This document shows, in pieces, positions 627-24,465 of a stretch of DNA of 24,465 bases (its first letter is position 1; each line of letters begins with the position of its first letter). Under the pieces are notes generated by a model. It saw nothing but the letters and a program-made list of their open reading frames with translations. It was not told the DNA's origin and searched no databases. Source of the DNA: a virus; IMG/VR virus record IMGVR_UViG_3300028550_001223, positions 1 through 24,465 of that record. One strand, given 5' to 3'. A program made the position numbers and the translations under genes.

Positions 627-2837
627 TTAACCTCCTACCTCACTAAAGGCAACCCCAGTTCGAGTTGCAATAAAGTTTAGGGTAATGAAGTTGATAGAAC
701 GAGCTGGTTTGATGTAAATATCACCAATAAACTCGTTACGGTCAATAACTTCACCAGTATTATTTGTACCGTCAGCGACTACCTTAAAGTCTGTGATACC
801 TCGGCGACCTTGAACATCTCGTAAGAAAGGTTCTACTAAGTTACGGAACTGAGCCCGTGTAAACTCATCGTTAAATTCGAAGAGTTGAAACTTAGATGCG
901 GTTGCAATTGCTTTCTCAAGAACTAAGAACAATCTACGCACGTTAATACGATCAAATGCACTTGGTTTTGCAAGAGCAGTCTTATCACCAAACAGAACCA
1001 CACCTTGGCCTGGGAAATTGATAACAGGATTAACTCTAAAGCGATATAACTGATCTCTTTCACCTTGAGATGGATTATAAGATAGTTTAATTGCACCACG
1101 AATATTTCCACGATTAAATCCAGCAGGAGAGAACCAAGGATCTGCAACACCATCAGTATGAGCACAAAGACCAGCAATGTCACCATTAAGAGGAACATGA
1201 CGAAATACATCAGTATATTTGTCGTACATATATTTGTAACCACTATCAAACACCACATAAGAAGAAGATGGGCATAACTCAAATGCTTCTGTTACATTTG
1301 ATGTCTGTGTAGTTGAATTTGCAATACCAACTGTTGCAGAACGAAACGGAGAAACAAATGCAACACAGTCTTTACGACTTTCCACTAGATCAGTAAGCAT
1401 TGTTACATGAGTATCTTGTCCAGCAGCACTATCAGTAACAGCAGAACTAGGCCCACCAAGAATTAAATTTACATCCACTCCTTCAGAGTCAGCAAATTTA
1501 TCATAAGCAAGTGCTAATTCACCAGCAGTAACAGCATAATCATCTGTCCCGCCTGTTAAAGAAACAGTAGTAATAGGAATTACTGATGTATATGCAGTTG
1601 CAGTATCCGTACCCCAGTTAGTACCAGCAGCAATATGATCACCCCAATAAACAAATGAGGATTGATTATATATTTTTGTTGGATAATAAATACTATCTCC
1701 TTGAGGGGATTTAGCAGCAGAATTTTTTGATAAGTTAGAGTAAGTCTCTATAACAGCATTAACTCTTTGACCAGCAACATCTACATCAGCCCCAGTAAGA
1801 AGTCCAGTTGTATCAAATAATACAATATGCAATTCATCACCAGTTCCACGACCATTTATTCTGTTGTAATCAGATTGACCTGGAGGAGAACTGAATAGGT
1901 CTGCAAATCTCCAACGTCTTGTTATAAATGAATTGTCAGGAATAATACTTTGAAGACCACCTTCATTAGCATCATCTTTTAAACGAATAGACAATACTTC
2001 ACCAGAAATACTAGTAACTTCATATTGAGTGTCACCATCTTCAACAGATGCATAAGGAGATAATGCTAACACAACATTGTCTGCAACCGTAATTGGTTTG
2101 TCTAGAATAAGGTTATTTTGATCAGTAACTGTTTTAATTTTTACTATTTCAGTAATACCAGCACCAATAACACGTTGACCAATAGCAGCAGTACCAGAGT
2201 TACCGTCAACTACAAGGTTAATAGTAGCAACTGAAATTGCACCATTAACAATAGCAGTAACAGAGTTTTGTGTATGAAACTTAATCATATCTCCAACTTG
2301 GAAAGCAAAACCAGATTCATCAGCATCATCAACTGTAATTGATGTATCGCCAACTGCTTTAGCCCCGTTAACTAAGTTGTTAGTACCTAAGTCTTGCTCA
2401 TAAGCTTGTGCAGAAGGACATACTTCAACACCAACTGAGTTACCAAAAATACCAGCAGTTCTTGCAATCCAATCATTTGTTGTACTTTGACCATCACCTG
2501 TTTCTGCATAAAAATCTGTCAAGTAGTGATCAGTATCACGAACCAATATACCACTAGATTCACCCGCATTAAGAATGGCAGATTCTGCACGAACCACCTT
2601 GAGTGTGTTACTATATTTTAGAAAGTTAGAAGCAGTAAACCAAAATTCAAAATTATCTGAATTAGGTTTACCAAAATTATTAAGGAGGTCAGCTTCGGAG
2701 GTAATTGTAACTATAGAAGACACATCGCCCTTCTCAAATGGGCCTGCAATTGCACCAATTGTGGTGTCAACTGATGGTACTACATTAGTTAAATCAATCT
2801 CTTTGACATGAACGCCAGGAGAAACTAGAAAAGACAT
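627..2837 (-). CDS. gp18: Contractile tail sheath protein gp18
   Basis: It forms the outer sheath that contracts to drive the tube through the host envelope. The N-terminus (M-S-F-L-V-S-P-G-V-H-V-K-E-I-D) and the C-terminal domain are diagnostic. Residues 660-736 include R-D-V-Q-G-R-R-G-I-T-D-F, I-D-R-N-E-F-I-G and I-K-P-A-R-S-I-N-F-I-T-L-N-F, nearly the T4 gp18 text. At 736 aa it is longer than T4 gp18 (659). Part of the excess is a module at about residues 197-260 that recurs in the 2220-aa baseplate protein of this window. This region lies in the middle of the chain, where sheath proteins carry variable surface domains. The start has AAGGAG at 2851-2846 with 8-base spacing, and a TATAAATA late promoter at 2892-2885. 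It heads the 18-19-20 unit. Confidence 0.97.
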   Translation of the reverse strand: MSFLVSPGVHVKEIDLTNVVPSVDTTIGAIAGPFEKGDVSSIVTITSEADLLNNFGKPNSDNFEFWFTASNFLKYSNTLKVVRAESAILNAGESSGILVRDTDHYLTDFYAETGDGQSTTNDWIARTAGIFGNSVGVEVCPSAQAYEQDLGTNNLVNGAKAVGDTSITVDDADESGFAFQVGDMIKFHTQNSVTAIVNGAISVATINLVVDGNSGTAAIGQRVIGAGITEIVKIKTVTDQNNLILDKPITVADNVVLALSPYASVEDGDTQYEVTSISGEVLSIRLKDDANEGGLQSIIPDNSFITRRWRFADLFSSPPGQSDYNRINGRGTGDELHIVLFDTTGLLTGADVDVAGQRVNAVIETYSNLSKNSAAKSPQGDSIYYPTKIYNQSSFVYWGDHIAAGTNWGTDTATAYTSVIPITTVSLTGGTDDYAVTAGELALAYDKFADSEGVDVNLILGGPSSAVTDSAAGQDTHVTMLTDLVESRKDCVAFVSPFRSATVGIANSTTQTSNVTEAFELCPSSSYVVFDSGYKYMYDKYTDVFRHVPLNGDIAGLCAHTDGVADPWFSPAGFNRGNIRGAIKLSYNPSQGERDQLYRFRVNPVINFPGQGVVLFGDKTALAKPSAFDRINVRRLFLVLEKAIATASKFQLFEFNDEFTRAQFRNLVEPFLRDVQGRRGITDFKVVADGTNNTGEVIDRNEFIGDIYIKPARSINFITLNFIATRTGVAFSEVGG
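631..636 (-). promoter_or_regulatory. Ribosome binding site of gp19 inside the end of gp18
   Basis: AGGAGG on the minus strand, 6 bases before the gp19 ATG. The bases are part of the Val-Gly-Gly codons that end gp18, followed by TAA and then TC before the ATG. Tube translation is therefore likely coupled to sheath translation. Confidence 0.75.
2058..2249 (-). repeat. Module of about 63 residues in gp18, shared with the 2220-aa protein (copy 1)
   Basis: Encodes gp18 residues about 197-260, starting V-N-G-A-I-S, then L-V-V-D-G-N-x-G-T, T-V-T-x-Q-N and ending D-N-V-V-L. The same ordered signature occurs in the 2220-aa protein at 15137-15324. Roughly half of the aligned residues are identical by eye, with a one-residue length difference. 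It looks like an inserted beta-rich surface module and not part of the sheath core. Confidence 0.7.
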
Positions 2838-2948: not shown

Positions 2949-3251
2949 ATGGTAAATGCACATTATGAAAAGTATAAAGACACAATTAAAAAGGTAGCTC
3001 GTAGAAACTATCGTAAAAGAATCATTCTATTGAATGAAAATCTAGCAGATAAGTCTTGTAAACATTGTGGCGAAAGCGAAACTGTGTGTTTAAAATACTA
3101 TCCTCATGATTCAGAAATACGAAAAATAACAAAAAGAGTTGGTACTAATCCTAAGAGTAGAAAGGAAATATTCTCTCTTATCGATGAAAGTATTATATTA
3201 TGTACTAATTGTTGGATTAAAGTTGATAATGATTTATTAGAATTTATATAA
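2949..3251 (+). CDS. Degenerate HNH-endonuclease-like zinc-binding protein (100 aa)
   Basis: This is the only gene on the plus strand. The 100-aa product has a basic N-terminal helix region (KDTIKKVARRNYRKR) and two CxxC pairs, C37-x2-C40 and C85-x2-C88, spaced as in small HNH proteins. In that family the first pair is followed by an F-H-H-x-D segment and the second lies in L-C-x-N-C-H. Here the first segment reads Y-Y-P-H-D (residues 50-54), the second L-C-T-N-C-W (84-89), and the usual last His is Asp93. The zinc scaffold is kept but catalytic His positions are replaced or shifted, so activity is doubtful. An in-frame stop at 2931 precedes the ATG, and no Shine-Dalgarno sequence is visible. 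The gene ends 2 bases from the convergent gp17 stop. It may be a homing-endonuclease relic or a repurposed nucleic-acid-binding protein. Confidence 0.7.
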   Translation: MVNAHYEKYKDTIKKVARRNYRKRIILLNENLADKSCKHCGESETVCLKYYPHDSEIRKITKRVGTNPKSRKEIFSLIDESIILCTNCWIKVDNDLLEFI

Positions 3252-9827: not shown

Positions 9828-12179
9828 TTATCTGGCCCGAGACTGGGAAACGCCTACCCCACCGAATGGAGCTTCTCCCCAAGCACTAAATAGATTTTTT
9901 GCTACATTACCGTTTATGTCGGCCGCCGATTCCCTCAATTTAAAGCCATTAGATAATATGTCGATATCGATCAGATCTGTTTCAATAACCGCATCACGAG
10001 CAAATATAATTCCGTCTGTCGCTGTGTTAAACGGGTTTTGACCTGTATCGTACCAGTATCCATTTCTATTACCGTCAAATCTTCTGATGAAAATAGCTCT
10101 TGGCCGAAAACCGCACCACACAAAAGACCCATCAGCAGCAGCATTACCCAAGTAGCTCCCATGCCTTTGATATCCAGGAACATCAGCGAATACATAGGCT
10201 ACATAGGTGCCATTTTCAGTATTGCCAGCATTGTCAACAACAAAAACACTGGCGTTATGAGTTGCAGCAAAATAAGAACTAGAACTTGTTTCAGTTCCAC
10301 GCCCTGTAGTACTCATCGGAATATTAAAATTATCCCCTGTTAAGGCTGTATGCCATGCAAAGGTAGCCGCTCCAGTATCTCGACGAATTACTATAATAAA
10401 TCCAGGCTTTACACCTAAATTGTGCGAAATCGACTGCGTGCCACTGGCATTTCCAGTATATGTTACGATATCAAAACCTTCAGTCGCGCCCTCTTTGAAT
10501 CCCACTAACGTATTTGGGCTTGTATTAGTATTATATTGTCCATCAGTGCCAAGAGTAACGCCGTCAGCGTCAAAAGATTTGACGCCTTGTGCTACTGTAC
10601 TTTCTCCAGCAGCCGTATTCATTGGCATTTCTTTTGTAGCACCTCGAATGGTATCTACAAAATTCCAGTCAGAAGAACCGCTATGATCTCGTACCCAAAC
10701 TGCGTTAGGAGATAGTGCTGTATTGCCTCCAAATGCGCGAGCGTTTTCTGATCCTGTGCCAGTAAAAGTCTGAACGTTCATTGCCGCGCTTGGGTCTTTG
10801 ATTGCTGGTTCGGGCAAATTAGCGGTGCATAAAGCTAGATACCCAGACGGTGGCGCATATTTAAAATCTCCAAAACCATTTCCGTCAGATTCGCCGCCTT
10901 CTCCGTCGATAGGAGATGTGCCAAAGTTGGCTTGGACAATGGCAGAAGTTCCGGTGGTGAAATACCAAGTTTGGCCAGCCTCTAAATCAGTCACTGCTAT
11001 TTTTGATGAATTGTTAATAAAAAATTCTAAATTTAAACCGTCGAGATCAACAGCCATGCTGACAACGTCATCTGCACTTATATTGCCGAGGTTAGAGGTT
11101 GTGATGGCACCGTCTTTCCAGTAGCGACCGCTTGAATCGTAGCCTCTACCTTCTCCATCAAGTGAAAATTGAAAGTTTAATGTAGTCGAATCTTTGGCTA
11201 ACATGACCATTGCTGTTGAAGAGATAGTGGTAGGGACAAACTCAGCATACCATTTTCCTGAAGTCATACCAAACGGGGATGCGTTATTTTGTGTCAATGA
11301 TACAGTACCCCCGTTTCCTACAGTTCCAACAGTGCCACTGTTTAAAATTATTTTACTTAGAGTAGCAAAATTTGATGACCCTGAATCAGCATTGTCAGCT
11401 GGAGAATCTTTTATTGTGTCGTTATCAGCAATTCCTGACGCAGCCCAATGATTTGCTTCTCCACTGGTGTCAGTTCCTGGCCCGTTACCTACCGATTCAA
11501 GAATTTTCATTTCCAAATAATAGCCATTGTCGCCAAACGTAAGCGATTGATCTTCTATGGAGATAGCTCTCCACCCCCCATTTGAATCGAATTCGCCAAA
11601 GCTGTTGGCTAGTAATCCTTGGCCATCAATCCACACAATCTCTGCCATAAGACCATTATAGAAATTACCTCCATTATGATCCTCTCCAATTTTATGAGCG
11701 CAAGCAGAGTTCCAACCAGGCACATCTGCCCCAGAATCGGGTTGGTTGTCGGTTGAGAAATCAGTGATTCTCACGCCGTTAACGAATATTTGGCTTCGAT
11801 TGCCATTTCCTCGGCTCGTATCCATTGACCAGACAAAATTATACCAGGCTGACGTATCTAGAAATTTTTGAGTGGTAACCTGATTCACCGTTCCAGTCGC
11901 ATCGACAAAACTAAGGTTTCCAGCTGTTAAAAATTGCATCTGATGATCGTTGCCATCAGTGCAAGAAAATATTTTACAATTACTTTCATTGGGGTTACCT
12001 CTTTTAAGCCACCAACTAAGAGTAAATGCTTTTTGAGAAGTTGGAGTTCCAAACGTCAAATCCATATGAGCAGAATCACCTGGATTAAATCTAAGAGAAT
12101 TTGAAACTGCATAACCGGCAGCTGATGGGGGAGTACTGGCAGTACCAAAACCAAGGACATTATATCCAAAACTTGTCAT
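9828..12179 (-). CDS. LamG/SPRY-like multidomain adhesin, putative receptor-binding tail protein (783 aa)
   Basis: Likely a distal tail-fibre or adhesin protein. Residues 45-190 resemble a LamG/concanavalin-like domain (F-T-L-S-W-W-L-K-R, W-Y-N-F-V-W-S-M-D, Q-I-F-V-N-G-V-R-I-T-D-F). Residues 300-440 resemble a SPRY-like domain (S-G-K-W-Y-A-E-F, then V-S-M-A-V-D-L-D-G-L-N-L-E-F-F-I-N-N). Residues 570-670 carry I-S-H-N-L-G-V-K-P-G-F-I-I-V. Residues 675-773 hold a module common in marine phage tail proteins (H-G-S-Y-L-G-N, F-R-P-R-A-I-F-I-R, I-L-S-N-G-F-K-L-R, A-W-G-E-A-P-F-G). GC in sampled lines is 48-53%, against about 33-40% in neighbours. The start uses AAGG at 12193-12190, overlapping the stop of the upstream fibre gene, 12 bases away. 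It is probably co-transcribed with that fibre. Domain names are by resemblance only. Confidence 0.8.
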   Translation of the reverse strand: MTSFGYNVLGFGTASTPPSAAGYAVSNSLRFNPGDSAHMDLTFGTPTSQKAFTLSWWLKRGNPNESNCKIFSCTDGNDHQMQFLTAGNLSFVDATGTVNQVTTQKFLDTSAWYNFVWSMDTSRGNGNRSQIFVNGVRITDFSTDNQPDSGADVPGWNSACAHKIGEDHNGGNFYNGLMAEIVWIDGQGLLANSFGEFDSNGGWRAISIEDQSLTFGDNGYYLEMKILESVGNGPGTDTSGEANHWAASGIADNDTIKDSPADNADSGSSNFATLSKIILNSGTVGTVGNGGTVSLTQNNASPFGMTSGKWYAEFVPTTISSTAMVMLAKDSTTLNFQFSLDGEGRGYDSSGRYWKDGAITTSNLGNISADDVVSMAVDLDGLNLEFFINNSSKIAVTDLEAGQTWYFTTGTSAIVQANFGTSPIDGEGGESDGNGFGDFKYAPPSGYLALCTANLPEPAIKDPSAAMNVQTFTGTGSENARAFGGNTALSPNAVWVRDHSGSSDWNFVDTIRGATKEMPMNTAAGESTVAQGVKSFDADGVTLGTDGQYNTNTSPNTLVGFKEGATEGFDIVTYTGNASGTQSISHNLGVKPGFIIVIRRDTGAATFAWHTALTGDNFNIPMSTTGRGTETSSSSYFAATHNASVFVVDNAGNTENGTYVAYVFADVPGYQRHGSYLGNAAADGSFVWCGFRPRAIFIRRFDGNRNGYWYDTGQNPFNTATDGIIFARDAVIETDLIDIDILSNGFKLRESAADINGNVAKNLFSAWGEAPFGGVGVSQSRAR

Positions 12180-12191
12180 GTTTTATTTTCC

Positions 12192-14060
12192 TTAAGCGTC
12201 ATTTGCAGCATCAGTAGTAAAGAATAGTTTTATACCTATAAGTCGTGCGTCACCAGCTTGATTGTCAGCAGATACATCTCTAGCTATTTGAAAGAAACAA
12301 CAATCTGCAACAGCAGGAGAACCTGCAATTGTTATTGCACCACTTTCTACTGAAACCATTAAATCATTTGATGTACCACTATGTGCAAGTGCAGTAGTAA
12401 CAACAGCAGTACCAAATGCTGTATTAATAGTATCATCACTTGACATAGCAATACCGCTTAATGCCCATGCAACTGTTCCTGTGTTAGTACCTGTTACTGT
12501 CCAAAAAGGTTGAAAAGTAACTGTTCCTTCATTCCACGATTTAGGAAATGCTATACTAAATTGTGCAAAATCATCTGCCCCTGTTGCAAAATCTAATACT
12601 TTTAGATCAGGTCTTAATGCAGTTGTTTCTACTTGAGTTATATCAGAGCATGGATTAGTTGTACTTGGATACATAGCAGCAGATGGAACCCATATAGATT
12701 CTTTTCCAACAGTTTTTATAACTGCACTAGCTACAGTTGCACCAGCAGTATCAAGGTCTACTGTACCATCTGCAGCAATTGCAATCGCACCAGCAGTAGT
12801 AGCAGTACCAATAGTACAAGCGTCTTTGAGTAGTATGTCATCAACAAAGGTTACTATACCTGTTGATGCAATTGTAATAGCAGAAGTTGAACTAGTAACA
12901 CCGATTGTTGCAGCATCCTTTAGAATAATATCATCAACGAATGTTACAATACCACTTGATGCAATTGTAATAGCAGTTGTAGCAGAAGCTGCTCCTATGG
13001 TTCCACCATCTTTAATAAGAATATCATCTACAAAGGTAACGATACCACCAGAACTAATCGTCATAGCAGTTGCAGCACCAGCACTACCTATAGTACCAGC
13101 ATTTTTTACAAGGATATCATCTACAAAGGTAACGATACCACCAGATGAAATTGTCATTGCAGTCGGTGCAGAAGCAGTACCAATTGTACCACCGTCTTTA
13201 ATTGTAATATCATCTACAAAAGAAACAATACCAGTAGAAGCAATTGTGATAGCAGAGGTTGAACTTGCAACACCAATCGTTGCGGCATCCTTCAAAATTA
13301 AATCGTCTACAAGGGTTACAATACCAGTAGAAGCAATTGTGATAGCAGAGGTTGAACTTGCAACACCAATTGTTGCAGCGTCCTTTAAAACAATATCATC
13401 AACGAAAGTAACGATACCTGTAGATGCAATTTGCATTGCGGCTGTTGAAGAAGCAGAACCAATATTACCATTATCAGGAAGTAACACACCACCATCAGCA
13501 GAAAGCGTAATAGTAGTTGCAGAGATTGCTCCGTTAAATATTGCTTTACCAGCATCACTCATATCAAGAGTAAGAGCAGTTATATCAGTAGTATTATCTG
13601 TACCTTTAAAGATAATATCTGTATCACCAGCCTGTGCATCAATAGTAATATTACCAGCTGAAGTAGCAATACTTACAGCAGCATCACCGGCAGAAATATT
13701 ATCTGCGGCCGGAGCTCCAACTCCCAAATTTGCTGGAGTGATTTTTTTAAGAACACCACCATCATTGATAAGAATATGATCAGCGTCAGAAACACTAGTT
13801 GATGTAGTACCAACTGCCGCATTACCAGTAGTAATAAGTGTGCCTGTAATATCAGGAATTGTGATTGTACGGTCACTAGTAGGATCAGTTGCAAGAAGAG
13901 TTGTCTCATTTGCATCAGCAGTAGAACCCTCAAAAACAATTGAAGATACAAACTGATTACCTCCAGCAATACCATCAACATCACTTATTAGGTTGTTAAA
14001 CTGAACTCTCAGTTCTTCTAGACTGTCACTAGGTAGAATTGCACTTGCTTCGATTGCCAT
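12192..14060 (-). CDS. Tail fibre shaft protein with 31-residue tandem repeats (622 aa)
   Basis: Inferred trimeric fibre. The N-terminal segment (L-E-E-L-R-V-Q-F-N-N-L-I-S-D-V, residues 15-29) is an anchoring motif seen in marine T4-like fibre proteins. It is followed by I-T-G-T-L-I-T-T-G-N near 71-80. Residues 200-416 are seven tandem 31-residue units (T-I-G-x-A-S-S-T-x-A-I-T-I-A-S-T-G-I-V-T, then F-V-D-D-I-x-L-K-D). The C-terminal about 170 residues are a distinct domain (I-W-V-P-S-A-A-M-Y-P; A-F-P-K-S-W-N; F-F-Q-I-A-R) of the kind found in other phage structural proteins with 'xxFPKSWDxG' text. The ATG shares the last A of the preceding stop (TAATG) and no good Shine-Dalgarno is visible, implying translational coupling. 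A TATAAATA lies 61 bases upstream, inside the 76-aa gene. Confidence 0.8.
   Translation of the reverse strand: MAIEASAILPSDSLEELRVQFNNLISDVDGIAGGNQFVSSIVFEGSTADANETTLLATDPTSDRTITIPDITGTLITTGNAAVGTTSTSVSDADHILINDGGVLKKITPANLGVGAPAADNISAGDAAVSIATSAGNITIDAQAGDTDIIFKGTDNTTDITALTLDMSDAGKAIFNGAISATTITLSADGGVLLPDNGNIGSASSTAAMQIASTGIVTFVDDIVLKDAATIGVASSTSAITIASTGIVTLVDDLILKDAATIGVASSTSAITIASTGIVSFVDDITIKDGGTIGTASAPTAMTISSGGIVTFVDDILVKNAGTIGSAGAATAMTISSGGIVTFVDDILIKDGGTIGAASATTAITIASSGIVTFVDDIILKDAATIGVTSSTSAITIASTGIVTFVDDILLKDACTIGTATTAGAIAIAADGTVDLDTAGATVASAVIKTVGKESIWVPSAAMYPSTTNPCSDITQVETTALRPDLKVLDFATGADDFAQFSIAFPKSWNEGTVTFQPFWTVTGTNTGTVAWALSGIAMSSDDTINTAFGTAVVTTALAHSGTSNDLMVSVESGAITIAGSPAVADCCFFQIARDVSADNQAGDARLIGIKLFFTTDAANDA
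12813..13463 (-). repeat. Seven tandem 93-bp coding repeats in the 622-aa fibre gene
   Basis: Encodes residues 200-416 as seven units of exactly 31 residues; the Ile of each I-G pair is at 200, 231, 262, 293, 324, 355 and 386. The unit is A-I-T-I-A-S-T-G-I-V-T-F-V-D-D-I followed by L-K-D-A-A-T-I-G. Within the array, 13225-13277 and 13318-13370 are identical over 53 bases at 93-base offset, indicating recent unit duplication. The related array at 24143-24421 is in another fibre gene. Confidence 0.9.
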
Positions 14061-14291: not shown

Positions 14292-17200
14292 TTATGTTAC
14301 CAAAGCCATTGCTCGAAATTCACTAATTCTTGGTGGTTCAGCTGAATTTGTTCCTTGCATGATAATTTTTATTTGAAATGATATGAACTCATCTAGTGAT
14401 TCACCAATACCGTCATCTGTAACACCACCAGTATAACTATATTCTCTAAAGTCTTCATTGTCAGCAGAAGCAGGAACAACTTCATCAGGTGAACCATCTG
14501 TATTAAAATTTGTATAACCAAGATCATCAAAGTCAGATGCATCATCTGTTCTTAGAAGTTTAAATAAAACTTTAATTTCAGAAGTTGCAGGCCTATGAGC
14601 AGAAAATAATACTTTCAATGCACTTGCAGGATTTTCTAGCGCAATTTGTTTTGTGATATAAATTGCAGCATTATTATCACCTTCTGGTTCTGTTGAAGGA
14701 AAGAAGTCTGTTGTTGGATAAACATCTGATGATGTATCTATATTATCTAACCTATTTGAGATTGCAAATAAAGATGTTCTTTGTAAATCAATAACAGGAG
14801 AAACAGTAGAAGATGTTGTTGTTAATTTTATTGGTATAAATAAAGATTTTATTCCACTTAGTTCATTAGTTTCATTAATACCAGAACACACCATGTGTGG
14901 TAAGTCAAATTTATAGTTATCATTTAGTGGTATTGTTCTTGCATTTGCAGCACTCAAGGTAGAGAAAGAAGTTTGAGCTCCAGAAGCACTTGTTGAAGTT
15001 GTAGGTCTAATACTCGTTTCAATTGTAGTTCCAGGCAACTCTAATGAACCAATCATAGTTTGTACATAATCTATAATAGCATTTTCTGTAGCAGTTATAA
15101 CACTACCACCAATTTCAGCAACACCACTTTTAGCAAATGTTAAAACAACATTATCACTTAATGATTCAGCACCACTTAATACAAGAGTGTTTTGGTTTGT
15201 AACTGTAGTAACTGTTATGCCTGAATCAACTCCAGTTCCAGAAACGGACATTCCTACTTCAATAGTTCCTCTATTACCATCTACTACTAGAGCAGTTGTA
15301 CTACTGATAGCACCATTAACCAGTGCTGTAGCACCATTAATAACAGGAGGAGATGTTAGAGTTATTGTATAACTATCAATTCCAATATTTGCAAGTGATG
15401 TATGAGTTTTATTGATCTCTGTCAAAGGTACTCTATGTATAATATAAAGTTCAACAGTTGCACCGTCAGCATGAGTAGCTGCGGTTGTACTATTTTCTCC
15501 TCTAGAAAGAACAGAAACATTGTTTCCAGATATTGCAGTATATTTCATTATCTCATCATCAATTTTAATAAACCATTCTGATGATGCACTATTTGCATAT
15601 TTACCAGTAGTATCATCAAAGTTAGTTCCACTAGTTAGAGTTAATGTTGCAGCTGTAGCAGTTATATCACCATTAAGTGTTGTAGAAGCACCAGACTTTA
15701 CACCATCAATAGTAACATTATTACTAGTAGAATACATATGGTGATCTATGTGTTTAACTTTTACAGTAGTACTACCATCTTCTAAAAATATAGAGTTTAC
15801 AGCTAAAGTTCTTACAGGAATTACTGTATTTTGCATAGTTAAAGTTCCACTAGTATTAGCTTTAAATTTTGCAGTCTTTAATTTAAACTTCAAATCTTCT
15901 AAGAAAGACGGGGCCCAAGTACTATTATTACTAGATTTAAATAAAACACCAGTATGAGGTTGTTCAGATATAGTTCTTGTTCCACCAATATCTGTCTCTC
16001 CCATTCGAGCAACCCAAACTTTATATTCTTGTGAGACTGATATTACTGAAATACAATACTCAGTGCCAGGTTTTACATATACTGGAGATTTAAAAGTAAA
16101 TGTTGTTGCAGTTGCTCCAGTATTAGATGTATTGATATCTGATGCGTCTTTAATTACTCTACCAAATGGTAATATCTTTTTGCCAGGATAACCGTTAATA
16201 ACATTTCTAATTTCTACTCTCATTGGAAGAGTTTCATCTTTATCAGAGAAAAAAAGATCAAGAGAAGTAATAAATCTTCCATCTGAACCTGATGATCCCT
16301 GCACAGTAAATGTTTGAGAAAGAGGATCATCACCATCACTAAATGATGGTTCACCAATCTGGAAAGTATCTCTGGATACAACTCTTGATGTTGAACTTGA
16401 TTGATTTAAGGTTGTTTGTACAACTGTAGCATTTCTAGTTGCAATAATTGTCTCTTGTTCAGTTTCTAAAATACCTTTAGCTGTATATATTGCATTTCCA
16501 GCAGTAGTAAGGGAATCTGTTAAAGCGTCAGCTGTAGAGTTTGTATCAGCTGATGCATCACTTCCAGTAAGATTTTTAGAACTTGATGTTAATCTGAACT
16601 GAACTTCTCCAGTTGAAAATTTAAGATTACCATCTATTTTTGGGTCTGGTATTACAAAAGTTCCTTCAACTTTACCAACATTTGTTGTTATTAAAGGACT
16701 TCCAGCAATAACAGTTGTATCTGTTGAATAGGTATTATTCAAAGGAGTAACATGAACATTTACATCTAATTTATCAAAGAATACAAAAAGTTTTGTATTT
16801 GGTCTAAATCCTGTACCAATAAAACTTATAGTTCGAGCTCGCATTACAGGAATAAGGGCTCTGCTAACTACACGTAATCCTTGTGCTTCTCTATCAACCT
16901 GTTCAATAACATTAGTACGTATTCCAGTTCTACTTCGATCTGTTCTGACTGTAGTAGTTGTTCTACCAAGTCCAGCATCCCCATTGCCTCCAGCTCGAAG
17001 AACTTCAGTTCTAGTTGTGCTACCTGACCATTGAGTTTGCCAAGCGTTCCAAATAGTTCCTATTTGGTTTTCAACTGAAGCTGTAACCGCATCAAAATTT
17101 CCATCAACATTAATAATAAGTTCTGGAGCTACTTCTGTTTCAAACCATTCGTCACTGTCAGGTGATAATTCAATTGTACCAACCCATTCGTGAGATAAAA

Positions 17201-20200
17201 ATGGTGCTACTTTTTCAATTCTAGATGCATAAGGTTGTTCTGTAAAAGTTTCTTCTGTATAAGGAAGAGTTATAAGATCACCAGTTTTTTGATATCCAGC
17301 CAAAGTTCTTTCTACATCTGTAGAAACACTTTCTTCTATAAATAACCCTTTGGTTACGTGTTTAGGACGTAAATGACCTAACTGCATATCCATAGCACAC
17401 TTATAATCTTTATGTGCAACGTCACCAAGTCTGTGGCCACTAAAGTTATCAACTACAAAACCAGACTTAAATCTACTAAGACCATTTGCATCTGTAACCT
17501 CAAAAGATTCAGCATCCCTCTCTAATAAATTAAGAGCAGTATAATACTCAACATGATCTAATCGTCTTTCTATTTCACCAATATCTTTCATAGTGAATCT
17601 TTGATTTCTTTCTCTTTGTATTTGTACATCTGTAGGTTTAAATGTAAATGCTGGTAAAAATAATGTTGCTAGTTTCATAGATGAATCTGGAGATTTTGGT
17701 GTAATTGGTTCTTCTGCACCAACACCCTCAACAACATTAATACTACCACCAGAATCCATAGATAATACAGCAATTTTTGATAAGAAGAATTCAAAATCAC
17801 TTTGAATACTTGATCCGGGCTTACAAACATCTACAGTAGAAGAACCAGCTCCATCATATTGTCTATGGAAAAAATCAAAAGAGTTTCCTGTAATTTCATC
17901 TATAGTTGATAATGTAGATGATGCTCCTAATATATCTTCAACTCTTGGACGGAAATCGTATGTATCCATAAGAGGAAAATCACCAGAAGGTTTAGGAGCA
18001 TCTGGATCAACTTTCGTTGCAGAATATGTTGGAATATCTTCAAAGTCCATCTGATTTGCAACATCAGTATAAGAATCAACTGTCATTACGTCACCAGAAC
18101 CATGTTCTAAATAATCATGTATTACTAACAAACGTCCAGTTGGAGCAGAACTGCCGGGGCGTCTTACAATTCTAGCAATATCATAATAGTTATCTCGTTG
18201 TCCAGTATCTAGAGTATATCTACTAGTAACAACATCACTACCATCAGTTGTTGCTGAAACTATTCCAGTTGCCGTAGAAGATTCTCCTGTTATCGTATCA
18301 AAAGTGCTAAATTTAGTATTATTTGTAGATACAAAACTAATAGGACTTGATGTAGAAATAATTCTTGCTGTAGCACCAGAAAAAGAACCAGTTATTTTTT
18401 CACCTCTTGTGAATGTTCCCGAAATTGTTCCTATAGTTAAAGTTGGCGCAGAAGCATCTACAGATACATCTTCTGAGTCAAATACTGCTGCCAAATTAAA
18501 TACATCAGCTCTACCTAGTGATACAATTTTATCTGTAGGTCTTGTACCAAATGCATCTGTTGCACCAGTTACAACCTTAACTTGTTTCATAAGGTTAGTT
18601 GTTTTTGTTTTATGTGATACTGAAGTTTTAAGGATTGTTGCAAATAATTTAACTTTTGCAGAATCAGCAAGAATAGTATCGTCTGTAACTGTAAGTGCAG
18701 CAGTACCAACTCCAGAAGTTTTTCCTGATAAAGTTACAAGATCACCTTGAACTCCACTACCATCTCCTGCTGCAAGAATAGACATTGTGAAATCTTTTTC
18801 TGCAAAAGATGCAAATGTTTCGTTTGAACCAGCAGAGAATGTTACAACACCAGAAGCGTTTGTTGTTCCTACAAACTGCCTTCTTACTGTGTATTGAGTA
18901 TCGGTTGCTCCACCATTACTTGCAGTTAAAAGTGTTTTAATAACTTTTTTTGGAAGTTTAAATATAGACCTATTTTTTTGTGCATCTTTAAGTCTTGCAA
19001 AAGTAGGAGTTTCTCTACCAATAGCTTCGATACCAAGGTCTTCTTCTTCAATAACATCACTACCAGCATCAGCACCATTTCCATCTGTGCCATCCAAAAT
19101 AATAGAACCTTCTTCACCAGATGCAGCTTCCAATACAAAGTCTGCTGTAAAGTCTTGTCCATTATCAATATCTTGCATATGTACTGATCTCAAATCGGAG
19201 AAAGTATTTGATGTTACTGTAGCAACTGTAATATCTACATCTCCAACAGTTTCAATAATTCCACCTACCTCTGATGAATCAGATGCTACAAGTTTTTCAC
19301 CAACTACAAATGTTCCAGCAACATTTGTTAAATTAATACTTGTTACAGAAGTTCCACTTTCAAATACAAATCCAGTTGCACCAGAAGTAGCACCAGTAAT
19401 TAAAACACCACCATTTGCATGAGAGGCAATTAATGTAGGACTTGGTGTTCCACTTAATGTTAACTTTGTAAATGGACGTATATCAAACATATAAAGTTTG
19501 TATATAGAAGTATTATTAGAAGAACTTGCTCCAGCTGCACCAGATGAAAATTCTATTGATCTTGCACGAGCAACACCAATCAATTCCCCTCTTGCTGAAC
19601 CTCTAGTAAGAATAGTATCATTATATAATTCTAGAGTTTTAAATGCTGTAGATTCACCACTAATAAATGTTACGTCAGGTGTTCCAAAAATATTTGTAAT
19701 AAATGCAAAGTTACCTAAATCAAAAGTAGATATACCAGCATTAATCGTTTCAAAATCTCTGGCCTTATTAACATCTTTTAATGTCGGTGCAATTTTTTCT
19801 ATTTCAAAACCACTAACATATGCTTTTCCTGGGCTTACTTGTAATGATAATAAACTTGAACTTGCAGTATTTCCATCATCTGTTGTAGATCCATTTGCAA
19901 ATGTACCAATAAAATCTTCATTACCAACACTAGTTGTAACAGACTCCTTTGAAGAAAATTGAAATGGCCTAACTGTATAGTTACCAGATTCATCAAATGT
20001 TCTTCTTGCAAGAGTTTCTTCTAAAACAGAATATTCTGTATTTCTAACTTGTGTTTGTATAACACCATCTTTTACATTCATCAGTTCTACAAAAGTACTA
20101 TCTGCTTCTGAATTTCTATCAAGTTTAGCTAATGCCAAACTAATCTGTAAACGATGAGCACCTTTTGCTGCAAAGTTTGAAGAACCTGTAGAATTATCTA

Positions 20201-20954
20201 AAAGAGATGTATCTGATTCTGGAGTAACAAGAGTCTCCGATACCGTAAATCCAACACGATAAGATGGAGTGTTATCATACTTATCAAGAACAATAGTTTC
20301 TTCTTCGCAAATAGTAAACATACCGCGAATATAATATACACCAGATTGTACAGTTACAGCCGATCCTTTTCTAGATGCAGGCCCCAAAGAACTTGCAAGA
20401 TTTAAAGCAGTTGATCCTGTAGCTGCACTAAATGATGAGGTAAAGGTAATTGCAGATGCAACATTAGAAGAGTAAGATGTAGTGTGAGTTATACCAGCAT
20501 TTGCAGAAATATTTTCTCCATCAGCAAACGAAGCTGTAATATTATCCGTACCTGTTGCAAGATATCTAATATAAAGAGTAGGTTGTTCTGTCGTTGTTGC
20601 AGCATCAAATCCTACAACAACAGCAGTAACACCAGTAGTTGCACCAGTAATAGTAACAGGTGTTGTAGAATTAAAATACTGTGAAGGGTCTACAGTTTCA
20701 GAAGTAAAGGTTGATGCTAATTTTAGAGAATAAAATTTTGTATTTAATGAAGATTGACCTGGAATAACCAAAGCACCTTCAGCAAAAATATGACTCCCAT
20801 GTCTTTCTATTTGATTTTGTAGTGAAGATTGTAGTTGCGTTAATTCTCTAGCTTGAATTGCAAATCCAGGGCGAAATAATACTCTGTTAAAATTATCTGT
20901 TTCATCAAAATCATCGTAATATGGAGAAACATTTAAATCGGTTTTTTGTACCAT
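14292..20954 (-). CDS. Giant baseplate or tail-associated structural protein, DUF4815-like (2220 aa)
   Basis: The N-terminus (D-D-F-D-E, then N-R-V-L-F-R-P-G-F-A-I-Q-A-R-E-L-T-Q-L-Q, Q-N-Q-I-E-R-H-G-S-H-I-F, residues 14-58) is the hallmark of the DUF4815 family of T4-like phage structural proteins. A central conserved part (about 1115-1210) includes I-G-E-I-E-R-R-L-D-H-V-E-Y-Y-T-A-L-N-L-L-E. A later conserved domain has L-S-Q-T-F-T-V, V-E-I-R-N-V-I-N-G-Y-P and H-T-G-V-L-F-K-S-S-N. Inserted modules: G-A-T-S-G-A-T-G / G-E-K-I type segments near residues 98-148, 514-568 and 839-903; an I-D-D-E-I-M-K-Y-T / R-G-E module at about 1765-1837; and the sheath-shared module at about 1877-1940. It follows gp8, where T4 has genes 9 and 10, so a baseplate or fibre-attachment role is inferred. 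GGAG at 20968-20965 sets the start. Confidence 0.85.
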   Translation of the reverse strand: MVQKTDLNVSPYYDDFDETDNFNRVLFRPGFAIQARELTQLQSSLQNQIERHGSHIFAEGALVIPGQSSLNTKFYSLKLASTFTSETVDPSQYFNSTTPVTITGATTGVTAVVVGFDAATTTEQPTLYIRYLATGTDNITASFADGENISANAGITHTTSYSSNVASAITFTSSFSAATGSTALNLASSLGPASRKGSAVTVQSGVYYIRGMFTICEEETIVLDKYDNTPSYRVGFTVSETLVTPESDTSLLDNSTGSSNFAAKGAHRLQISLALAKLDRNSEADSTFVELMNVKDGVIQTQVRNTEYSVLEETLARRTFDESGNYTVRPFQFSSKESVTTSVGNEDFIGTFANGSTTDDGNTASSSLLSLQVSPGKAYVSGFEIEKIAPTLKDVNKARDFETINAGISTFDLGNFAFITNIFGTPDVTFISGESTAFKTLELYNDTILTRGSARGELIGVARARSIEFSSGAAGASSSNNTSIYKLYMFDIRPFTKLTLSGTPSPTLIASHANGGVLITGATSGATGFVFESGTSVTSINLTNVAGTFVVGEKLVASDSSEVGGIIETVGDVDITVATVTSNTFSDLRSVHMQDIDNGQDFTADFVLEAASGEEGSIILDGTDGNGADAGSDVIEEEDLGIEAIGRETPTFARLKDAQKNRSIFKLPKKVIKTLLTASNGGATDTQYTVRRQFVGTTNASGVVTFSAGSNETFASFAEKDFTMSILAAGDGSGVQGDLVTLSGKTSGVGTAALTVTDDTILADSAKVKLFATILKTSVSHKTKTTNLMKQVKVVTGATDAFGTRPTDKIVSLGRADVFNLAAVFDSEDVSVDASAPTLTIGTISGTFTRGEKITGSFSGATARIISTSSPISFVSTNNTKFSTFDTITGESSTATGIVSATTDGSDVVTSRYTLDTGQRDNYYDIARIVRRPGSSAPTGRLLVIHDYLEHGSGDVMTVDSYTDVANQMDFEDIPTYSATKVDPDAPKPSGDFPLMDTYDFRPRVEDILGASSTLSTIDEITGNSFDFFHRQYDGAGSSTVDVCKPGSSIQSDFEFFLSKIAVLSMDSGGSINVVEGVGAEEPITPKSPDSSMKLATLFLPAFTFKPTDVQIQRERNQRFTMKDIGEIERRLDHVEYYTALNLLERDAESFEVTDANGLSRFKSGFVVDNFSGHRLGDVAHKDYKCAMDMQLGHLRPKHVTKGLFIEESVSTDVERTLAGYQKTGDLITLPYTEETFTEQPYASRIEKVAPFLSHEWVGTIELSPDSDEWFETEVAPELIINVDGNFDAVTASVENQIGTIWNAWQTQWSGSTTRTEVLRAGGNGDAGLGRTTTTVRTDRSRTGIRTNVIEQVDREAQGLRVVSRALIPVMRARTISFIGTGFRPNTKLFVFFDKLDVNVHVTPLNNTYSTDTTVIAGSPLITTNVGKVEGTFVIPDPKIDGNLKFSTGEVQFRLTSSSKNLTGSDASADTNSTADALTDSLTTAGNAIYTAKGILETEQETIIATRNATVVQTTLNQSSSTSRVVSRDTFQIGEPSFSDGDDPLSQTFTVQGSSGSDGRFITSLDLFFSDKDETLPMRVEIRNVINGYPGKKILPFGRVIKDASDINTSNTGATATTFTFKSPVYVKPGTEYCISVISVSQEYKVWVARMGETDIGGTRTISEQPHTGVLFKSSNNSTWAPSFLEDLKFKLKTAKFKANTSGTLTMQNTVIPVRTLAVNSIFLEDGSTTVKVKHIDHHMYSTSNNVTIDGVKSGASTTLNGDITATAATLTLTSGTNFDDTTGKYANSASSEWFIKIDDEIMKYTAISGNNVSVLSRGENSTTAATHADGATVELYIIHRVPLTEINKTHTSLANIGIDSYTITLTSPPVINGATALVNGAISSTTALVVDGNRGTIEVGMSVSGTGVDSGITVTTVTNQNTLVLSGAESLSDNVVLTFAKSGVAEIGGSVITATENAIIDYVQTMIGSLELPGTTIETSIRPTTSTSASGAQTSFSTLSAANARTIPLNDNYKFDLPHMVCSGINETNELSGIKSLFIPIKLTTTSSTVSPVIDLQRTSLFAISNRLDNIDTSSDVYPTTDFFPSTEPEGDNNAAIYITKQIALENPASALKVLFSAHRPATSEIKVLFKLLRTDDASDFDDLGYTNFNTDGSPDEVVPASADNEDFREYSYTGGVTDDGIGESLDEFISFQIKIIMQGTNSAEPPRISEFRAMALVT
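15137..15324 (-). repeat. Module of about 63 residues in the 2220-aa protein, shared with gp18 (copy 2)
   Basis: Encodes about residues 1877-1939: V-N-G-A-I-S, L-V-V-D-G-N-x-G-T, T-V-T-N-Q-N and D-N-V-V-L in the same order and near-identical spacing as in gp18 at 2058-2249. It lies directly after the I-D-D-E-I module and an S-Y-T-I-T-L-T-S-P strand, and looks like a transferable structural insert. Confidence 0.7.
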
Positions 20955-20958
20955 ACTA

Positions 20959-22458
20959 TTAGAACTCCACTATAATTTTGATATCTTCTGTTTGATCTGT
21001 AGATCTTGATATTGGTTTTCTATTTTCTCTATAAATAATATTTCCACTATCCGGTTGAAGCTCTGGGTTCGCAAATCCATTAGTAAACGTGATAGTATTT
21101 CCACCTTCCAAACTTACAGCTGAATCAGCAGTTAAGTCTGGTGTGCCTGTTGCAGAAGAACTAGCTCCTGTGACCGTACCAGATCCAGAGAACACATAAT
21201 AAGCACCATCTGAACTTAATGTACCAAATCCTCCAAACCTTTCCTGTTGATAATAAAGAATTTTAAGTGTAGAATCATATTCTACAACTGTACCAGTTGC
21301 AACAACACTATCTGAATTTGTATGTGTGATTACTTCATCAGCAGTAAATGTGCCAGGCGAACCACTAAACTTCATAGCATAAGTTGTTCTAAATGATGAA
21401 GCAGAACCTACGGTTGATGTTCCAAAAGTTGTAGGATCAACTACTAAATTAATATTTCTAAAATCGTTTCCAGTTAAGAAGTCATCACTATCAGCACCTT
21501 CAAGACTAGTTTGTAACAGAACGAAATGACCACCTAGTTCATTTACAGCATTAGAACCATGACCACCTTTTGGGGAAATAAATACTGATATTGCTGAACT
21601 TGATCCACCGATTGCAGATGCACTAGTTAGTGCTGCGTCTGAGAATGTAAACCCACTACCAAGATTAACTGTACCAAAAGTGTAACCAGCACCAGCTTGT
21701 TGTACACCAGTATTACCAGTTGATACCGCTGAAATAATAGTACCAGAAACTGTAATTTTTACAATTGCACCACTAGAAGTTCCAGCAGAAGTTCCATCTC
21801 CATATACTGCTGCAAAGTATGTTCCGTTAGTTAAACCACTACCCGTATTAGTAACAGAAATTGATTCGATTGCACCGTTTACAGCAGCTGCACTTACTAC
21901 ACTGTCTGTAGTTACAGGCATAAAGTCCGTTGTTAAAAATGTTGCTTGTTCTGCAGCAGTAATAGAATACATATATTTAAGAGTGTATCCACCTAGAACA
22001 AAACTAGAAGTTGACTCTGATGTAGGTTCAGCACCACTATATGCAGCTCCAGAATTATTATCTAATACTTTATAAATTCTGTTATCAGAAGTTCTAAAGA
22101 AGAATGTAGAATCGAATATGTTTGTAGCGCCAGATGTTGTTGCATTTGATGAACTAACATTGTCTCCATACATATCATATATTGTACTATTTGCCCAATC
22201 TCTGCGAGGTAATGCAAAAGTTATGTTTGTTGAAGAAATCTTTTTTGCAGCAAGAGCACTATCCCAAGCATAAAACTCACTTGAAATATCATCTGCTGGT
22301 ACTGGGGGTGAATCATCACTTCCTCCAGAAGTTGCAGAAGTAAATGCATTTGGTTTGCCTATCATGAGATAATAAACATTTCCAGAAGCTTCAGTAAAAG
22401 ACTCAAAAAATTGTGTCGCATTATGACTTCTAAACTTCTCTGTAATTATTGCTGTCAT
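20959..22458 (-). CDS. gp8: Baseplate wedge protein gp8
   Basis: A structural component of each baseplate wedge that binds gp7, gp10 and gp6 in T4. Both ends are unmistakable. The N-terminus I-T-E-K-F-R with N-F/Q-F-F pattern matches T4 V-T-S-K-F-R. Residues 83-88 (L-P-R-R-D-W) match T4 I-P-R-R-D-W. The C-terminus S-G-N-I-I-Y-R-E-N-R-K-P-I, D-Q-T-E-D-I-K-I matches T4 S-G-E-M-I-Y-M-E-N-R-P-P-I, D-Q-T-E-E-I-N-I. At 499 aa it is longer than T4 gp8 (334), mainly through Gly/Ser/Thr-rich inserts at about 192-268 (I-S-V-T-N-T-G-S-G-L-T / G-A-G-Y-T) and 360-440. H-P-K-G-G-H-G-S-like text (S-P-K-G-G-H-G-S, 295-302) is shared with marine relatives. AGGA at 22469-22466 is 7 bases from the ATG; a late promoter lies 30 bases upstream. 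Confidence 0.95.
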   Translation of the reverse strand: MTAIITEKFRSHNATQFFESFTEASGNVYYLMIGKPNAFTSATSGGSDDSPPVPADDISSEFYAWDSALAAKKISSTNITFALPRRDWANSTIYDMYGDNVSSSNATTSGATNIFDSTFFFRTSDNRIYKVLDNNSGAAYSGAEPTSESTSSFVLGGYTLKYMYSITAAEQATFLTTDFMPVTTDSVVSAAAVNGAIESISVTNTGSGLTNGTYFAAVYGDGTSAGTSSGAIVKITVSGTIISAVSTGNTGVQQAGAGYTFGTVNLGSGFTFSDAALTSASAIGGSSSAISVFISPKGGHGSNAVNELGGHFVLLQTSLEGADSDDFLTGNDFRNINLVVDPTTFGTSTVGSASSFRTTYAMKFSGSPGTFTADEVITHTNSDSVVATGTVVEYDSTLKILYYQQERFGGFGTLSSDGAYYVFSGSGTVTGASSSATGTPDLTADSAVSLEGGNTITFTNGFANPELQPDSGNIIYRENRKPISRSTDQTEDIKIIVEF

Positions 22459-23237: not shown

Positions 23238-24465
23238 TATGCCAACACAACAAAGTCGCTTGAAGGTTGAAAAAATACAACATCAGCAGTTAAAGCATAT
23301 CCTACAGTACGAACAATATCTCCAGAACCAGTAGGCTTTGTATGTGTCATGGCTCCAAGAGTTCCACTAACGTAAAGTGCTGCGCCTGGAGTAAAGTTAA
23401 ATGTATCATCTCGTACAAACGCACCAGGTAATGCTACGTTTACAGCGGCACCACTAGATGCTGCTGCTAACGTAAGACCCATCATATTAATTGAAGTTCC
23501 TGCCGCATCTGCATCAGCTTCTAACCATGTTGAACTACCTCCTAAGATTACCAAGTCAAATGCAGCTGCTGAATAACCAGCATTTAATGTATTGGTTTGC
23601 GGGCCGGTTGCTGTGTGATCTGTTGGTGGTGTAGCATCTAACTGAAACGGTGCTTGAAGTCCTGCTAAACTAAAGTGTGCTGCGTCGATAGAAGCATCAG
23701 TATAGTGTTCACTATCAATAGCATCATCTGCAATTTTAGCACTCGTAATAGCGTCTGCTTGAATGTCAGCAGTTTCTACTGTATTGTTAGGAAAAACAGG
23801 TACAGCAGTAAATGTGTGTACACCTGTTGTTACAGCTGTTCCACTAATCTCGACATTAGCATTTATATCAACAAGAGTTGCATTTAATTCTATCTCATCT
23901 GTAGCGTTAATATCTAAAATTGCATTACTAGGAGCGCCAATATTCTGACTTGCATCATTAAACTGTATGACGTTTGTACTATTTAATAAAATACCAGTAT
24001 CATGAACGTGTGTTAATGAAACTTCATCATTAGCACCAAATGATAATATTGCGCCGTCATGCTGTAATTCTAAATCTTGCGTTAATGTTACATCGCCATC
24101 TGCCCCTATTGCTATAGCATCAGGGTCAGAAGCAGAACCAATAGTACCAACATCTTTAATTAAAATATCATCAACGAATGTTACAATACCAGTAGAAGCA
24201 ATCGTTATAGCAGAGGTAGAGGAAGCAACACCGATTGTAGCCGCATCTTTAAGAACTAAGTCATCTACTAATGTCACTATACCCGTTGATGCAATTGTAA
24301 TAGCAGAGGTAGAGGAAGCAACACCAATTGTTGCAGCGTCCTTTAAAACAATATCATCTACAAAGGTAACGATACCTGTAGAGGCAAGAGTCATTACAGC
24401 TGCAACCGAAGCATTACCTATCGTATAACCATCAGCACCCTTAAAGGCACCAGTTGTTGTTATTG
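23237..24465 (-). CDS. Tail fibre shaft protein with 31-residue repeats, 5' end beyond the window
   Basis: The frame is open through the right edge. An internal ATG at 24394 is not the start, because upstream codons in frame (G-A-F-K-G-A-D-G-Y-T-I-G) continue the repeat pattern. Three 31-residue units (24421-24143) match those of the 622-aa fibre, followed by a degenerate unit. The middle contains H-T-F-T-A-V-P-V-F-P and A-D-A-I-T-S-A-K-I-A-D-D-A-I-D, text common in marine phage fibres. The last about 125 residues form a distinct Gly/Ala-rich C-terminal domain (V-A-L-P-G-A-F-V-R-D-D-T-F-N-F, then I-V-R-T-V-G-Y-A-L and F-F-Q-P-S-S-D-F-V-V-L). The stop overlaps the 232-aa gene (TAATG). Fibre function is inferred from repeats and context. 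Confidence 0.78.
   Translation of the reverse strand, partial: ITTTGAFKGADGYTIGNASVAAVMTLASTGIVTFVDDIVLKDAATIGVASSTSAITIASTGIVTLVDDLVLKDAATIGVASSTSAITIASTGIVTFVDDILIKDVGTIGSASDPDAIAIGADGDVTLTQDLELQHDGAILSFGANDEVSLTHVHDTGILLNSTNVIQFNDASQNIGAPSNAILDINATDEIELNATLVDINANVEISGTAVTTGVHTFTAVPVFPNNTVETADIQADAITSAKIADDAIDSEHYTDASIDAAHFSLAGLQAPFQLDATPPTDHTATGPQTNTLNAGYSAAAFDLVILGGSSTWLEADADAAGTSINMMGLTLAAASSGAAVNVALPGAFVRDDTFNFTPGAALYVSGTLGAMTHTKPTGSGDIVRTVGYALTADVVFFQPSSDFVVLA
24143..24421 (-). repeat. Three tandem 93-bp coding repeats in the partial fibre gene
   Basis: Three units of exactly 31 residues beginning I-G-x-A-S and containing A-S-T-G-I-V-T-(F/L)-V-D-D, then a degenerate fourth. Over 68 residues (24385-24182) the protein is identical to residues 212-279 of the 622-aa fibre (13427-13224) except one Ile/Val. 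The DNA differs at many synonymous positions but includes a perfectly shared 41-base stretch (24318-24358 and 13360-13400). Confidence 0.88.

Follow-up and report, generated by a model that had tools for sequence, protein, structure and literature searches.

A small β-domain found in both the sheath protein and a giant baseplate protein of one phage tail recurs across virion proteins

The tail sheath protein gp18 and a giant baseplate protein encoded in the same stretch of viral DNA carry homologous copies of a small module, each inserted cleanly into a loop of its host protein, and relatives of the module occur in many otherwise unrelated proteins of other phages. The most probable explanation, to which a probability of about 0.6 is given, is that a self-contained β-domain spreads among virion genes and would have a role in surface display or weak adhesion. 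The stretch analysed, referred to below as the window, comes from one virus record and is 24,465 bases long.

The two host proteins and the homology of their modules

The features of the window on which the argument rests are the following, with the basis of each assignment in brackets.

627–2837, minus strand: gp18, tail sheath protein, 736 aa (Pfam, PHROG, T4 gp18 structures)
1980–2024, minus strand: gp18 host strands following the insert, residues 272–286, QYEVTSISGEVLSIR (predicted strands 272–278 and 281–286; EYEVTAxS conserved in insert-less sheaths)
2043–2267, minus strand: β-module inserted in gp18, residues ~191–265 (homology to the giant-protein module; missing from the same loop in 54 of 74 aligned sheaths)
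2268–2288, minus strand: gp18 host strand preceding the insert, residues 184–190 (strand in the full sheath model; VGDxIxF conserved in insert-less sheaths)
14292–20954, minus strand: giant baseplate protein, 2220 aa, PHROG 358, DUF4815 (Pfam, PHROG, solved homologue)
15129–15332, minus strand: β-module inserted in the giant protein, residues ~1875–1942 (carried by loci L083–L088, cleanly missing from L089–L110; predicted with six strands at pLDDT 94.4)
20959–22458, minus strand: gp8-like baseplate wedge gene adjoining the giant gene (Pfam Phage-Gp8, E=4e-16; PHROG 438)

gp18 is a T4-like contractile tail sheath protein that contains the Pfam sheath domains PF17482, PF04984 and PF22671 and is homologous to T4 gp18 at both of its ends. 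It matches the PHROG 23 tail sheath family with E=1.7e-125 and the T4 gp18 structures with E~1e-98, and the closest named phages by sheath sequence are the Pelagibacter phages Mosig and HTVC008M and the Methylophilales phage Melnitz (50–56% identity). The giant protein belongs to the DUF4815/PHROG 358 baseplate proteins (DUF4815, E=8e-62; PHROG 358, 1777 bits). Its relatives in cyanophages and pelagiphages are named VrlC or baseplate wedge, and a solved homologue is part of the phage 812 baseplate (9euf chain 0, E=1.5e-42). The giant gene is assigned to the baseplate cluster because the gp8-like wedge gene adjoins it.

The original prediction held that the sheath and the giant baseplate protein have one module in common, located at residues 197–260 of gp18, which are exactly window positions 2058–2249 on the minus strand; residues 1879–1941 of the giant protein correspond to 15132–15320, also on the minus strand. 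This homology is confirmed by BLASTP, which aligns gp18 191–268 with giant-protein residues 1873–1949 at 46% identity and 62% positives over 78 aa (E=3e-9). The Smith-Waterman score of the module is 158, against 68 for the best of 1000 module shuffles and 46 for the reversed module, so that a chance likeness due to the Thr/Ser/Val-rich composition is ruled out; the remainder of gp18 reaches only 53–54 against the giant protein. Within the proteins of the window the module profile matches gp18 and the giant protein only. The shared segment reaches a little further than first proposed, over about 191–265 in gp18 and 1875–1942 in the giant protein. The two copies are 50% identical in protein and 56% in DNA and each is nearer to copies elsewhere, which excludes a recent duplication inside this phage as the source of both.

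Insertion, fold and constraint

The final alignment of sheath relatives contains the module in 20 of its 74 sequences. It is situated between VGDxIxF and EYEV, and insert-less relatives join these two ends by a short loop. A tree of the sheath built without the module forces at least two changes in its presence. In the giant protein the module lies between YTITLxxxPVxDG and GVAEIGG on the six contigs that carry it (L083–L088), whereas L089–L110 lack it at the same loop. Both inserts are repeated in independent assemblies (L192 and L193 for the sheath, L083–L086 for the giant protein) and are therefore not assembly artefacts. As had been proposed, the module accounts for the length of gp18 relative to its T4 counterpart, since the 736 aa protein exceeds the 659 aa of T4 gp18 by 77 aa and the insert of about 75 aa, located between the two conserved ends alignable with the T4 protein, makes up nearly all of the excess.

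When modelled alone, the module is predicted with a pLDDT of 94.4 and a pTM of 0.78 as an all-β structure of six strands, and it is confidently predicted to be a self-contained, independently folding domain. In the full sheath model it forms its own strands between host strands 184–190 and 272–278, although this part is of moderate confidence (pLDDT 60–81), and the global superposition of the model on T4 gp18 is poor (TM 0.41) and unfit for exact domain placement. For these two reasons the outward exposure that was expected along with independent folding is judged from the insertion site, by which the module would lie on the virion surface; independent folding itself is upheld by the prediction for the module alone.

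Sequence searches with the module return no significant match in the PDB and no significant family in Pfam, with no Ig or BIG match up to E=10. Its best fold match in the PDB is 8eci chain 1 of Arthrobacter phage Bridgette, which is not significant (E=0.016) despite a TMq of 0.78 (2.5 Å over 73 columns, 22% identity), and which is a separate 124 aa protein and not an inserted domain. By its size, the Bridgette chain could presumably be a capsid decoration protein. Most of the further weak PDB matches are to tail proteins of phages and to chains of F1-ATPase, none of the best 50 being named as an Ig fold, and five predicted viral structures match at E<0.001. The likeness to the Bridgette chain would suit a cementing or stabilising domain that makes the tail stiffer through contacts between neighbouring copies or with adjacent subunits, and sheath stabilisation is among the proposals made for extra sheath domains by Evseev et al. 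(2022; PMC9230969). Such a role is nonetheless considered rather improbable, as the module's hosts differ in symmetry and neighbours and include tail fibres and bacterial surface-type proteins, and most sheath relatives do without it.

The module has a pN/pS of 0.48, the highest among the sheath regions, compared with 0.37–0.40 for outer and 0.23–0.29 for core regions. It is thus under purifying selection, yet less constrained than the rest of the sheath.

Spread among virion genes

With the module alignment as query, viral contigs yielded 252 relatives, 80 of which were kept, and an iterated profile over the ORFs of the collected loci identified 116 ORFs in 103 loci, some of which overlap on the same contigs. 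When the hosts are clustered with the module masked, they fall into at least 11 virion-protein families that are otherwise not related to one another and come from uncultivated phages, most of them marine. Besides the tail sheath and the DUF4815 giant protein, these are PHROG 5107 tail proteins of HMO-2011-like podophages (called 'tail structure protein' in Roseobacter phage annotation); gp80-like fibre proteins, which hold two copies, and the 197 aa product of a neighbouring gene, which holds one; PHROG 3465/17744 baseplate-wedge proteins; a virion protein of PHROG 14478 that can reach 2879 aa and whose contig shows as many as ten matches; PHROG 19943 fibre-like proteins; PHROG 38559; and an Mtd_N tail fibre, in addition to single cases. 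The window's own PHROG 19943 protein (9828–12179) is without the module. A mobile surface domain decorating two parts of one virion had been predicted; the mobile insert is borne out, whereas its restriction to sheath and baseplate is not.

Two arrangements of copies may be recorded here. The PHROG 14478 protein at L175:2-7801 (contig G016) has many module matches of varied divergence, and a PHROG 5107 tail protein in L124 and L125 carries a tandem pair, the second copy of which is without the first strand.

Among 50,697 phage records, tblastn with single modules or the consensus returned nothing and the 130 aa tandem pair retrieved only Roseobacter phage CRP-345, where a profile search recognises two diverged copies in gp51. 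The near-absence from isolated phages thus holds for close forms of the module only.

Movement of the module is visible among close relatives. In the PHROG 5107 family the closely related hosts L129 and L139/L149 carry it at different sites, each without the other's copy. Contig G001 matches the window at 99% identity over 16.6 kb, and at 99.8% over the common 3.7 kb end, and continues past the window's right end into a 1662 aa baseplate-wedge protein (L195:4166-9151) with a third module at residues 455–522; this copy is outside the window and known from G001 and G002 only. In the relative of this 1662 aa protein encoded in L201/L202, a giant-type module is nested inside the wedge module. The nested copy is 83% identical in DNA to the giant copy of the window, and their local alignment ends at the module ends (giant 1872–1942, wedge 486–556), a transfer between genes at the level of DNA.

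In the module tree, which comprises only 67 columns and leaves many forks unresolved, the sheath copies are all united in one clade (SH-aLRT 99), and a second clade (96/95) holds the giant copies together with the wedge copy of L161. By their sequences the sheath and giant copies of the window are accordingly placed in different lineages. It had also been suggested that the two copies bind each other, which would couple the baseplate to the sheath. Both are indeed present in the phage of the window and on the L087/L200 contig, but contig G014 (L196/L197) has the module in the sheath and a giant protein without it, L198/L199 have it in neither, as do many phages, and the lineages are separate. 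Mutual recognition is therefore disfavoured and can hardly be credited.

The clean, in-frame and sometimes nested insertion into several hosts would also be expected of a palindromic, transposon-like mobile DNA element, such as the Rickettsia palindromic elements, rather than of a shuffled protein domain. Terminal inverted repeats do not exceed synonymous shuffles (5.58 vs 5.51), flanking target-site duplications do not exceed permutation (5.12 vs 5.03, sd 0.11) and there is no marked excess of hairpins. In-frame insertion in unrelated genes is thus seen, but terminal inverted repeats or a strong palindrome are not, and an element of this type is very improbable. The module looks instead to have spread by recombinational domain shuffling.

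A search with the module consensus also identified three Bacteroidota MAGs. In the family of a Cyclobacteriaceae MAG, 4 of 149 genomes contain 2–12 copies, and a sample of 396 genomes from the phylum yielded no module besides that MAG. As these are MAGs, contamination is possible, although contigs of 0.07–0.87 Mb hold most of the copies. The bacterial loci (L204, L206, L212–L218) lie in marine Cyclobacteriaceae-like MAGs within large surface-type proteins, one of which has SprB repeats while others, by reading, resemble secreted surface proteins. One copy in G141 is decayed and contains stops.

Such decay is what a near-neutral passenger might show, an easily inserted and easily folded domain that is spread by recombination and retained since it does little harm. 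A patchy distribution with nested and tandem copies agrees with this, and the elevated pN/pS is also compatible with relaxed constraint on a dispensable passenger. Purifying selection nevertheless persists, many copies are 60–80% identical between unrelated hosts, and every host that could be identified is a virion protein, a tail fibre or a bacterial protein of surface type, so that a mere passenger is thought fairly unlikely.

Comparison with known domains and the proposed role

Fraser et al. are said to have described promiscuous Ig-like domains of phage virion proteins in 2006. According to two later papers, phage Ig-like domains are small β-domains that occur sporadically in unrelated virion proteins and are exchanged horizontally, and weak surface adhesion has been proposed for them (PMC10684548; PMC9230969). 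The module is likewise small, β and patchy across several unrelated virion proteins. It differs in lacking an Ig match in Pfam, in its internal insertion in loops and in its Foldseek neighbours, and is not filed as Ig-like because no Ig signature was found. Evseev et al. (2022; PMC9230969) regard extra tail sheath domains, mostly Ig-like, as part of sheath evolution. The module resembles these as an extra β-rich domain outside the conserved sheath core of large phages; unlike them, it is recognisable from its sequence in many proteins other than sheaths, and presence or absence among close relatives makes its acquisition visible. Smug et al. (2023; PMC10684548) report that tail and baseplate proteins belonging to different families continue to exchange domains, and no mention of the tail sheath was found in their text. 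The module is similarly exchanged among tail and baseplate families, but is without a Pfam model and its close forms are nearly missing from isolated phages.

By this analogy, the best reading is that the module behaves like the phage Ig-like domains while having a different fold, and would be a promiscuous surface-display domain. It is proposed that the six-stranded domain of about 67–75 aa travels between virion genes as a DNA fragment, that its insertion is tolerated in a surface β-hairpin loop and that the host fold closes around it. The sheath would have acquired one lineage, the DUF4815 protein another and the baseplate-wedge protein on the near-identical contig a further copy in separate events. 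Each copy may bind weakly, and the multiplicity of copies along the tail would add strength, as has been proposed for the Ig-like domains; a generic adhesion or display role is suggested by that parallel. Glycan binding, which had also been suggested at the outset, is a candidate function. A broader reading, put forward tentatively and thought possible but doubtful, is a common display layer: an undescribed domain would be recombined as a small DNA cassette through the virion genes of very different uncultivated marine phages (podo-, myo- and others), reaching even essential machine parts such as the contractile sheath. Surface proteins of marine Bacteroidota would have it too, and bacterial surface proteins might be its source or its target.

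Extra domains of phage tails are commonly labelled Ig-like without explanation, and the present module can be tracked by sequence between unrelated virion genes. Since close relatives with and without the insert, alternative sites and a nested insertion are all at hand, direct tests can be made of where virion decoration comes from and what it is for. The module also marks insertion-tolerant loops of sheath and baseplate proteins, and with a model of the Pfam type a domain that at present goes unseen in marine viromes could be annotated.

Three further observations concern other genes. On the plus strand at 2949–3251, opposite in orientation to gp18 and gp17 between which it lies, is a 100 aa ORF with two CxxC pairs that is possibly a degenerate HNH-type protein; Pfam gives no significant match for this assignment. 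Two fibre-like genes of the window (12801–13463 and 24129–24387) have common 93/186 bp coding repeats that are 82% identical in DNA between the genes. Finally, the gp15-like sheath stabiliser of Pelagibacter phage Mosig (L112, 15960–17558) is 532 aa long compared with 268 aa in the window, which suggests that another domain has been inserted there.
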